Assembly: GCA_027604005.1 (NCBI GenBank)
Contig: JADGJT010000488.1
Location: 1 to 14,897, forward strand
DNA from: Dinochytrium kinnereticum
Lineage: Eukaryota; Chytridiomycota; Chytridiomycetes; Chytridiales; Chytridiaceae
Length of the DNA: 14,897 nucleotides
Direction: 5' to 3'
A program made the position numbers and the translations under genes. Below are positions 9,056 to 13,541 of the stretch, piece after piece. The notes below the pieces were generated by a model. It saw nothing but the letters and a program-made list of their open reading frames with translations. It was not told the origin of the DNA and ran no database searches. Position 1 is the first letter of the stretch; each line of letters begins with the position of its first letter.

Positions 9056-12000
9056 ATGGTGTTCCGACTTGGGCAGACCGCATCATGTTCTTCGTCATTG
9101 ACACTATCGTCATTAAACTGTGACAGAAAATCCCCTCCTCCGATCCACTCACGAACACATCCGGATATATATCTCTCTCTGCTTTTTTCTCCTAGCCGTC
9201 TTCCTCAATCTTGTATCATATCCCCTCTCTTTATCTCTGAACGCTTAAGAAAGCCCGGCCCGTGGCCTTTGCCTTTCGCACCTGGCAATTCGCATAAGTA
9301 TTCCGATCGTAACGGCGATGGCAGAGGAACTTTTGGTGCTTTCTACAAGTATCTTTTGGCGTTTTATCTAGTTGTGATGCTAGTGTTTGGCCTACCGGGT
9401 GTTGAGTCGAAAGGTTAGTGACTTACCTTTTTTTTAGGACCATGGAGGGGAGGGAATCGCTGTATGTAGCTGTAGATTATTAATATTTCTCTATCTTTTC
9501 TCTTATGACTTTTCAGTAACGATCAGGGCCACTGGGGCCAGTTTTCCTAACGATATATATCAAAGGCTTATCAAGCAATTTGTATCCCTTTACGGAAGTT
9601 TGTATTTTTCTTACCACCATTCCATACCATTCCCTACCCAGTGTTATTCTATTGGAATCATATAATTGATTTGATATGTTTTTGAATATCTCCTTCTATC
9701 TTCGCTAACTCTTTGCAGTTGGAGTAATCAGCGCTTTTGAGTATATTGGCAACAGCTCAACTGCCGGTCTCATTACCCAAAATAACAACACCAGCTTTCA
9801 GTGGGGCGGATCGGATATCGCAGTCAACCCCGCCCTTTACAATCAGAGTACTCTTCTCGCTCTCCCCGCCGTCGCAGGGCAAGTACTTTACCATTGTAGG
9901 CAACGCCGAGAATATCCATTTAAACCTTTTTTTCTCATCTAGAGCCATCGCCGTTGCCTTCAATCTTCCTGAAATAAGCCGCCTCGGTAATGCAACCCAA
10001 GCGGCTTCCCTTCGACTCAGTCGGACTGCATTACCCTCAATCTTTGATGGATCTATTAAATACTGGAACGACTCTTTAATCCTTCAAGATAATGAACCGG
10101 TGGTTCGAGATGCCTTGTCTAGAATCACGGAGCCTATTCGCCTCGTTGTACGGAATCCAGGGTCTGGGACCTCTGCAAACTTTATCAAGTTTTGTAGGAC
10201 TTTAAAAGGGGGGTTTGTAGAGTGGACTAGGGTGCAGGGATTGAATGTTATCAGTGCCAAGACCAATCAGGCGGTTGGCCAGATTGTTGGATCCATTCCT
10301 TACACCGTGGGTTTTATTTTTTATTTTTTTTATATTCTTTTTTTTTCGAAATCTGTCGCTTGCGCCAAGTATGATTTTCTGGAGCGCTCTAAACTTTTAC
10401 TTTAGATAACATACATGGATAGGGATGAGCTTGAAAGCTCAAAATCGAGCAATAAGTCTGAGCCGCCTCTCGCTGCCTTTGTTCAGAATAATAGGTTGCA
10501 ATATGTGGCTCCAGAGCGAACCGCGTTATTGGTAAGCTGGCTATTACCGCATTTCTCTCTTTCTTTCCGTATTATTGCTCTCTGGTTCGTCGCTGTCCGT
10601 CCTTCGTCTTTATGAACAGCGTGAAAGTTTAATTTAATCCATTTTTTTTCTAAAAAATAGACCGCTCTGAGAAACTTGGGAAACGATACAATTCGATCAT
10701 GGAACCCTTTTAATGGCAGTCTCGAAGCTTTAGACTCCACCGCCGTCGACGCCTACCCTATCACCATCATATCCAATTATGTCATTCGTCAAAATAATAT
10801 CTCTAGCGTTACGGATGTGACCGCCTGGACTCTTCGGTACATGTGGTGGACGCTTACATCCTCGGAAGCCGAAGAAATCTTCAATGGCACCAACTTTGCC
10901 TCTCTCCGAAATTCTGAAGGGTCCCGACTGGCGTTGGAGTACATTAAAAACTACACCGTCCAAGACCAGCGACTTTACAACGCCTCCATTTGCGACCAAG
11001 CCGCTGAAGGGTTGAATCCTTGCCGTCACGGAAAATGCGAGAACCGTTTACCATTTCAACCTTTGGAAGTAAAGTGCGTTTGCGAACCTGGGTTTTGGAA
11101 TGATCGGTTTTCGGATTGCAGGGAGGAGACGCCGGCGTTTTTGTCGGATCCTGTGACCATTGTGCAGCTTGCTTTGGCTGGGGTTTCTGTTGGGGTTATT
11201 TTGGGGACTCTGGGATTGGTCATGTGGCATGCCAGACATCCGAAATTGAGAGCTATTAGCCCGATGTGTTGTTATGTTATTTTGGTGGGGTGTTTGTGTG
11301 GAGCCATATCGATTGTGGCTTATGCTGCTACTCCGTCAAACTTCTCTTGTAGAATTCGGATGTTTTTTCCGGCTGCTGGGTTTGGATCGGTTTTTGGGTC
11401 AGTTTCCTTCTTTTCTTTTATTCGTTTTATATCGTACAGGGCCAATAGAGGTCAGCGTTACTTTAAGGCACTCCCTCCTCTTTTGTGTTCTTTGATTATG
11501 GTGATTTAACAAATACTTGAACGAAATTTCAGGATGCTCCTCTTAAAAACCTACCGTATCTACACAATTTTTGGGTATTCCCGTCTTAAAACCTCCCGTG
11601 GAATCCGCGATCATATCCTAGTTTACCTAACCCTCGCCATAACTCTTGTTGAGATTCTTCTTTGCGTCGTTGTGATAATGATAGTCGAGCCTAGAGGAAA
11701 GGACAGTCAGGAAAATGAAGATCAGTCCTCCTTTGAAGGGAGTACGAACATTCGAAACTCGTTTACGGTGTGTGCTGCGGGAGTTGGAAAAGAGGGGGTT
11801 GGAGTAGCTTTGGAGATCATTGTTTATGCCTATAATGCGATCATATTGATTACGGCTCTTGTGCTTGCGATTAAGACTCGAGGAGCTTTCAAGAGATTTG
11901 CGGAGAGCAAGGCTATTGCTTTGGTAACTTACGTCGTGACGATATGTGTTTGTATGGGACTTGTGAGTAGACGGTTTCTCTTTTGATCATGCTTTGTCTC

Positions 12001-13541
12001 TTGATATTGGTGTTTGTCTGTTTTCTTTAACAATAATGATAACTGCCCTTCTTCACTTCATTTCGCAATTTGCTAACACACACCTTTCCTTCACAACCTA
12101 CCAGCCTGTCCTCTACGCCATCCCAATCCTAAACGTTCAGACCAACGCCGTCGTCAACGTAGTTCGTAGCGTCCTCTTCTTCATACTCTCAACCGGTACC
12201 CCTTTGATCCTTTTTGCAAAGCGACTCGGCGATGTCCTCGCCAAGCAGGGTCCTTCTCGTAGGCTTCCGCGTGTGAATGGAATGAGACCGTCGGAGGACA
12301 GGAATGAGACTGGATTGGACAAGACTTCAACGGATAGTGGCTCGGATGGGAATAGTGGGGTTAGAGAATGGCCTGGGGATGGACGCGAGAGCTCGGAAAC
12401 GGATATTGTTCAGCATGCTTATTTACAGTCGTTTATGGTTGGGTTTAGTTTTGCCTTTTTTTGTTTTTTTCTGCTCATGTGTTCGCCGTTTGATTTATGT
12501 TTATTGTTCTCGTCTTGTTTTTGTTGATTTGTCGTTGATATCTTTGGAGGTCGTCTGATTGAAGTAGACCTAAATCTGCTAACTACTTCACTCGCTTTGT
12601 AGTTCGACGTGGGTATCTGCCGGAACCGCTTCAGCGCAGCCTGGTCAGGCGCTCGTCTTCTGATGCTACCCCTTCACGACATTCTCTTTTTCGTAGACTC
12701 GATGCGCTCAGCCGAAACGATTGTCTCCATGAGGATCTCAACCACCGTTATCTCCTCACCAAACTGGGGCGACCCCGATGTGTCTTCCCTTGCCGCCCAG
12801 TCTCAACATCCCATCGAGGATCCCTCGGGAGTCATGCCTTCCACCACCGCATCTGGATTCTTGGAAAGTGATTTGAATGGTTCAGAGAGTTATCAGAAGA
12901 GGATGGTCATACTTCTTCCGGAGGACGATCGGTCTGGATGGTTCGTTGAGTTTCTTAATATGGATAAACTCAGGATCTTTAAGTCTGTCCATCACTCGGT
13001 GAATGCAAAGGAGACCTCGGCTTCTGAGATCATTGGGAGCATACGGAGATCTTTAAATTCTTCCCAAAGCCCTGCCAACCCGCCGACTATCGGGGCTTCC
13101 AGAAGTGGAGATCTTGACCCCAGATCTGCGCACTTTAGGAATAGTGGGGTATTGAGAGTTGGGAGTGGGACGTTTGAGGGCATCATGGTGAATGGCAAAT
13201 CTACAATGTTGCTTGAACAAGGAGGTAGCGGTAAAGCCACGCCGGACGGTATCCATAAAGTTATGGTGCATGACCTTAAGCGTCTCCCAAAGTCGTCTCG
13301 CGAACCTTCTTCAACGGGTCAGGGTGTGTCTCCGTTGGCTGTATTGTCGAATCCTCCTGTACCTCCTGCTATAGAAGAGAAGGCTCTGAGCTCGCCAGGG
13401 TTGTTAACTGTTCGAGAGGTAGAAGCCAGTGGCTCGGCGGCTGTTAAGGCACTTGCAATAGTTAGGGAAAGGGAGGAAAGAAAGTACCTGTTGGATGGAG
13501 ATCTATTGTCCATGCAAAACCTTGGTGATGCTAGGAAGTGA
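9056..13541 (+). CDS. PstS-like/EGF-like/7TM class C-type receptor, up to 1175 aa, 9 exons
   Basis: Predicted plasma-membrane G-protein-coupled receptor. Exons: 9056-9413, 9517-9597, 9719-9878, 9943-10306, 10406-10531, 10661-11397, 11533-11962, 12105-12437 and 12603-13541; the frame closes. Numbered from 9056, residues 97-119 are a hydrophobic signal segment. PstS-like domain, about 120-460: ATGASFP (124-130), GGSDI with Asp179, NLPE, IKYWND, and RNPGSGTS with Arg270, Ser274, Gly275 and Thr276, the phosphate-loop positions. EGF-like cysteines are 474, 484, 489, 502, 504 and 516. Seven helices lie near 528-552, 566-586, 597-620, 637-659, 699-721, 737-759 and 768-790. Cys593 and Cys689 are placed like the class C TM3-loop 2 disulfide. 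The tail (793-1175) is Ser-rich with a possible beta domain. Several NxS/T sites lie outside. Ligand is probably phosphate or another oxyanion by homology, unproven. The start is uncertain: in-frame ATGs lie at 8699, 9056 and 9377, and a TATA box lies inside the proposed first exon. Confidence 0.9.
9166..9172 (+). promoter_or_regulatory. TATA box candidate near the receptor start
   Basis: TATATAT is followed by a long CT-rich stretch (about 9173-9240) typical of fungal transcription starts. If it is used, transcription begins near 9200 and the in-frame ATG at 9056 is not in the mRNA. That bears directly on where the receptor starts. Confidence 0.45.
9879..9942 (+). other. GC-AG intron (64 nt) in the receptor gene
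   Basis: Between PAVAG and AIAVAFNLPE the frame changes. The only donor with the right phase is GCAAGT at 9879, with acceptor TCTAG at 9942. Other donor positions nearby, such as GTACTT at 9883, give the wrong frame and an in-frame stop follows. GC-AG introns are a known minor class; this donor is otherwise a perfect consensus. Confidence 0.8.

Follow-up and report, generated by a model that had tools for sequence, protein, structure and literature searches.

A PstS-like domain, a six-cysteine hinge and a class C-type seven-helix domain in one predicted gene of the chytrid Dinochytrium kinnereticum: a likely phosphate sensor

Introduction

Does the contig analysed here, from Dinochytrium kinnereticum, a chytrid of the order Chytridiales, encode a single receptor in which a relative of the bacterial phosphate-binding protein PstS is joined to the helices of a class C receptor, and what would such a protein sense? 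The window is the entire contig (C476, 14,897 nucleotides) of a genome of 22.4 Mb in 558 contigs. A preliminary description of this DNA had placed PstS hallmarks, six cysteines spaced as in epidermal growth factor (EGF) modules and seven hydrophobic helices in one spliced frame, and their coordinates were confirmed on that frame. The reading favoured here is that one spliced gene encodes a PstS-like domain, a six-cysteine EGF-like hinge, a class C seven-transmembrane (7TM) domain and a tail with a predicted pleckstrin homology (PH) fold, and that its product is probably a G-protein-coupled sensor of extracellular inorganic phosphate.

Domain composition

The Pfam profile 7tm_3 matches the spliced protein at amino acids 417-683 (E 3.8e-35, 122.2 bits versus a cut-off of 33.5), and PBP_like_2 (PF12849) matches it at amino acids 14-228 (E 1.5e-10, 41.8 bits versus a cut-off of 27). 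The seven helices, encoded at 11150-12242, are of the class C fold. The Lys of transmembrane helix 3 (TM3, LLLKTYR) and the Glu of TM6 (FAESK) align with those of mGlu4, and the class C switch residues are invariant in the alignment of the receptor family. The large two-lobed periplasmic-binding-protein (PBP) ectodomain of class C members is also predicted here and is of type II; ANF_receptor, the type I domain found in animal class C members, is absent from the Pfam matches of the spliced protein.

The PstS-like motifs GASFP (9534-9548), GGSDIA (9805-9822) and RNPGSGT (10151-10171) lie in the ectodomain. Exon 4 alone matches PBP_like_2 with E 3.1e-5 and 26.9 bits, or 27.2 bits when the neighbouring exons are added. 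Among solved structures, PstS chains are the closest in sequence (E down to 1.2e-9). Structure prediction, one of the checks proposed in the preliminary description, was carried out on the ectodomain of the homologue P0001 and gave a PBP fold that is PstS-like (type II). The proposed profile searches had a divided outcome, with PBP_like_2 and 7tm_3 over their cut-offs and the EGF models and the PstS model TIGR00975 under theirs.

Eight homologous proteins (P0001-P0008) with the same domain order were found in Phlyctochytrium planicorne, P. bullatum, Chytridium lagenaria, Siphonaria sp. and D. kinnereticum itself. Both Pfam domains are matched in seven of the eight (PBP_like_2 at 64.1 bits in P0001). 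In P0006, a paralogue from the same genome, the ectodomain aligns though Pfam PBP_like_2 gives no match, and in P0003 and P0007 the PstS part is present in shortened form only. Profiles, homologues and predicted structure together support three statements: the ectodomain resembles PstS, the 7TM domain is of class C, and the two are fused.

Gene structure

The gene model comprises nine exons on the plus strand (9377-13541) encoding 1068 amino acids. Seven of its eight introns are GT-AG and one, after exon 3, is GC-AG. The features are as follows.

Exon 1, 9377..9413, plus strand: end of the signal peptide; GT donor and upstream in-frame hydrophobic stretch
Exon 2, 9517..9597, plus strand: start of the PstS-like N-lobe with GASFP (E. 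coli T10/F11 positions); from splice sites and homologue alignment
Exon 3, 9719..9878, plus strand: PstS-like; NSSTAG (S38) and GGSDIA (D56)
Exon 4, 9943..10306, plus strand: PstS-like; IKYWND and the RNPGSGT loop (R135, D137 replaced by Pro, S139, G140, T141)
Exon 5, 10406..10531, plus strand: PstS-like C-lobe
Exon 6, 10661..11397, plus strand: final 106 residues of the PstS-like domain, EGF-like hinge, TM1, TM2 and part of TM3, with no interruption
Six-cysteine EGF-like hinge (within exon 6), 10991..11119 (amino acids 367-409), plus strand: from cysteine pattern and invariance
Exon 7, 11533..11962, plus strand: end of TM3 (LLLKTYR), TM4, TM5 and start of TM6 (FAESK); 7tm_3 match
Exon 8, 12105..12437, plus strand: end of TM6, TM7 and start of the cytoplasmic tail
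Exon 9, 12603..13541, plus strand: cytoplasmic tail with a predicted split PH fold; stop at 13541

The start Met at 9377 gives a very short signal peptide and the upstream frame is open back to a stop at 8651, so that the 5' end is provisional.

It might be supposed that two adjacent genes were fused by a faulty gene model, and mergers do occur at this locus. The deposited protein P0010 (HDU67_007625 of D. kinnereticum), 99% identical to the present model across the full length of the latter, spans approximately 5725-8096 and 9254-13541 of the window and joins the receptor to an upstream PF01532 gene, whose frame terminates at a separate stop, at about 8094-8096. We take PF01532 to be the GH47 family. 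The deposited model was not adopted, as it merges this gene with the receptor and omits VTYVVTICVCMG of TM6. The passage from PstS-like domain through hinge to helices, however, lies within the single exon 6, in an open frame at 10661-11509, and is found again in proteins predicted from other species, which are without PF01532. The chimera explanation was rejected on these two grounds and appears extremely improbable. Bacterial contamination was likewise rejected because of the eight introns and the PF01532 gene alongside. The fusion claimed in the preliminary description thus holds, given the two Pfam matches, the continuity of exon 6 and the eight homologues of the same order.

Hinge and cytoplasmic tail

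All six hinge cysteines are invariant in 9/9 aligned sequences, and the signature C-x-C-x2-[GP]-[FYW]-x4-8-C was found in all nine proteins scanned. No Pfam EGF model reached its cut-off (the hinge of the window scored 14.5 bits at best versus 22.1), and the structure model is poor across this region; for these reasons the hinge is called EGF-like by its cysteine pattern only, and the earlier claim of an EGF-like module stands as a claim of pattern.

The preliminary description had ended the gene at 12437 and so missed exon 9, which contributes 312 amino acids and is conserved in P0001 and P0002. The split PH fold is predicted at about 12603-12758 and about 12900-13010; domains of the PH superfamily are sandwiches of seven strands with a C-terminal helix that closes them. 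An alternative tail frame, 12563-12871, was dropped because the exon conserved in these two homologues is the phase-0 exon at 12603. We know of no PH tail in metabotropic glutamate or GABA-B receptors.

The putative phosphate pocket

We take the phosphate contacts of PstS and their numbering to be T10, F11, S38, D56, R135, D137, S139, G140 and T141. In the alignment with PstS rows, the protein of the window keeps eight of these nine positions (T10 as Ser), which bears out the earlier statement that most of the pocket is retained; the remaining one, D137, is Pro. Seven bacterial rows (P0048, P0057-P0062) were removed before the pocket counts. P0003, P0005 and P0007 are N-terminally truncated and some of their pocket columns are missing; the Ala and Cys of P0003 in the T10 and S38 columns stem from its truncated start. 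In the six full receptor ectodomains all contacts other than D137 are kept, save one Thr in one row, and the Asp56 position is kept in all six. Since the pocket is retained, phosphate is the ligand considered most probable, and from the sequence we infer that phosphate is what the protein would sense.

The replacement of the loop Asp by Pro, which the preliminary description expected might alter affinity or specificity, is confirmed, and the concern attached to it is weakened. By their titles, the PDB entries 1qui, 1quk and 1qul are PstS D137G, D137N and D137T with phosphate (D137P is not among them), and the Asp is gone from 10/10 receptor rows. Bacterial rows keep it in 46 cases out of 48 after row removal; an earlier count, made before rows were removed, found the loop Asp in 31 of 34 bacterial rows. 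Two bacterial rows that lack it are P0023 and P0054. The idea that the change to Pro abolishes phosphate binding was not sustained in view of the three mutant entries and of these two bacterial proteins.

Alternatively, the protein could be a class C receptor whose PstS fold serves to sense a phosphonate, a phosphorylated metabolite or another oxyanion, or whose flytrap is mainly structural or dimerising. The loss of D137 in every receptor row means that selection at this site differs from that in PstS, and the receptor has also lost further positions that bacterial PstS strongly conserves, for example in the GN-G and GAIGYVE regions. An N-glycosylation sequon at N51 (window 9751-9759), which has no counterpart in P0001, adjoins the pocket serine equivalent to Ser38; a glycan there could disturb binding, or hint at regulation. 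Moreover, the gut-fungal class C receptors with type II SBP ectodomains are read as sugar-binding in the accessible part of their description (PMC5168858), so a type II ectodomain need not bind phosphate. What speaks for phosphate is that the contacts, Asp56 among them, have persisted despite strong divergence, P0008 being 29% identical to the protein of the window. A ligand other than phosphate, or a structural flytrap, is considered rather unlikely.

The changes at D137 and in the other PstS positions and the sequon weigh against phosphate sensing, and several further points must be set beside them. The match to the NCBIfam PstS model TIGR00975 extends over residues 3-326 of the 357-residue ectodomain (E 4.8e-30) and scores 104.7 bits, which fails the curated equivalog threshold of 205; judged by these profiles, the ectodomain is a relative of PstS and is not classed as PstS. 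The closest bacterial matches to the ectodomain alone are distant (E 3.8e-5, 31% identity). In the alignment behind the structure model, 34 of 43 rows are bacterial PstS, which favours the appearance of that fold, and the test of pocket conservation ignores kinship and gave a modest p. Taking these points into account, phosphate sensing is still regarded as the probable function.

Receptor or transporter

A seven-helix protein with a PstS domain might also be a phosphate transporter, the domain handing its solute to the helices, as Rolfe et al. proposed for fusions in Plasmodiophora from homology and expression, according to the available part of that paper (PMC4815078). The helices, however, are of the class C receptor type, and BPD_transp_1, the permease family of PstCAB type, has no match in the assembly, with controls positive in 14/14 genomes; the missing permease is no proof, as the assembly is fragmented (558 contigs), and this too counts against our interpretation. 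An ATP-binding cassette (ABC) importer (PstCAB) that the domain could serve, as PstS does, was thus not found. A sensor is favoured over a transporter on account of the receptor-type helices and the lack of this permease family, and transport seems very improbable.

Somewhat akin to this is the possibility that the protein binds phosphate at the surface and retains it, takes it into the cell or senses it on behalf of a partner, but activates no G protein itself. The predicted PH-fold tail could serve trafficking in such a protein; on the other hand, the switch residues are invariant in the family and G-alpha matches were found in the D. kinnereticum genome, and we regard this as improbable.

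If the protein is a G-protein-coupled phosphate sensor, its two-lobed flytrap would shut on phosphate through the positions of Ser/Thr10, Phe11, Ser38, Asp56, Arg135, Ser139, Gly140 and Thr141. The hinge, probably braced by disulfides, would relay the closure to the 7TM bundle of a receptor that is probably dimeric, as other class C receptors are. The conserved pair of TM3 Lys and TM6 Glu may act as the switch, a heterotrimeric G protein would be activated inside the cell, and the tail may dock to membrane lipid or to the G protein. A more far-reaching version is put forward tentatively: zoosporic fungi may have converted the protein with which bacteria capture phosphate at high affinity, making it the ligand switch in a dedicated phosphate-gated class C receptor with its own PH tail, so that phosphate would be read at the surface through G proteins and membrane lipid. 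With the loop Asp lost, the affinity would have been adjusted for sensing instead of scavenging.

A receptor with a PstS-like flytrap and a nearly whole pocket supplies an immediately testable ligand. It would be further evidence that class C 7TM domains take flytraps of both structural types, and here the predicted PH domain is borne on the receptor itself. If the sensor reading is true, the reading of similar fusions as transporters comes into question.

Homologues and origin

A tree was built from 57 PstS-type sequences, with P0003 and P0007 left out. It unites the eight receptor rows in a single group (100/99), which sits on a long branch and is separate from the 48 bacterial rows. The bacterial rows are only those returned by the protein searches, so the tree points to no particular donor.

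A second PstS-like gene of the same genome, on contig C73, places beside the receptors (98/92); both branches are long and the join may be false. This gene (C73:18400-28300, from about 5578 down to 2892, minus strand) has a PBP_like_2 match (E 1.2e-14), beyond which lie hydrophobic stretches. None of the three pieces scanned downstream of its PstS-like domain has a Pfam match, and C73 is not among the 7tm_3 matches. In its protein the loop Asp is kept, but the positions of S139, G140 and T141 are occupied by Cys, Ala and Ser. It is possibly another kind of fusion of PstS with a membrane domain.

Other features of the genome and the window

In the 22-Mb genome, 28 exon-level matches of 7tm_3 were found, with ANF_receptor matches nearby on contigs C36, C121 and C174. 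The 7tm_3 matches on contigs C242 and C192 have weak SBP_bac_1 matches upstream of them that stay below the cut-off, which suggests further putative receptors with type II binding domains. In the window, a long open frame on the minus strand (665-2437) has a weak F-box-like match (20.2 bits versus a cut-off of 24.3).

Comparison with known systems

Bacterial PstS is the soluble partner of an ABC importer. It differs from the present protein in having no membrane domain and in keeping D137 in nearly all rows, as counted above.

Among eukaryotes with comparable fusions, Plasmodiophora brassicae is a rhizarian, not a fungus. The accessible part of Rolfe et al. (2016, PMC4815078) describes 7tm3 fusions with SBP_bac_1 or PBP_like_2 in this species, four genes being assigned to phosphate, and the authors' transcriptome backs single coding regions. 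We infer that these four are the PBP_like_2 ones. Like the present protein, they join a prokaryotic binding domain to 7tm3 in a eukaryote; unlike it, they are interpreted as species-unique transporters, and the main text names no EGF or PH domain (PMC4815078). In the chytrid Spizellomyces punctatus, SPPG_06488 is a glutamate-family protein listed with PBP_like_2, again an ectodomain of this family on a class C 7TM domain; in the part of the paper available it is a list entry only, with no analysis of pocket, hinge or tail and no proposed ligand (Krishnan et al. 2012, PMC3251606). A social-amoeba paper, in the part available, names PBP_like_2 only in its abbreviation list (PMC10445921).

Class C receptors of gut fungi carry sugar-type SBP ectodomains, so that a type II binding protein replaces the type I flytrap, and a few have EGF-like domains; the accessible text contains neither the word phosphate nor a PH domain (Seppala et al. 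2016, PMC5168858). Metabotropic glutamate and GABA-B receptors differ, according to the same partial source, in their type I flytrap and, except for GABA-B, in a nine-cysteine hinge (PMC5168858). The calcium-sensing receptor is a class C receptor that does respond to extracellular phosphate; in the part of the source available, phosphate is a non-competitive antagonist at arginine-based anion sites and thus inhibits, rather than being the ligand of a PstS pocket (PMC6795806).

As far as the accessible parts of recent overviews go, the glutamate-class receptors of fungi number 918 in a 2025 survey (PMC12842992), and a 2026 review describes fungal G-protein-coupled receptors as mostly orphans and tabulates the glutamate class in fungi as uncharacterised (PMC13308352). 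A term search of the main texts of three of the comparison papers found no mention of a pleckstrin or PH domain. The preliminary description knew of no characterised receptor of this architecture, and none was found characterised in the literature searched, which included few subscription papers; the pair of domains itself is listed in the available parts of PMC3251606 and PMC4815078. The domain pair is thus already known, and the present analysis contributes the study of the pocket, the conserved hinge and the predicted PH tail.
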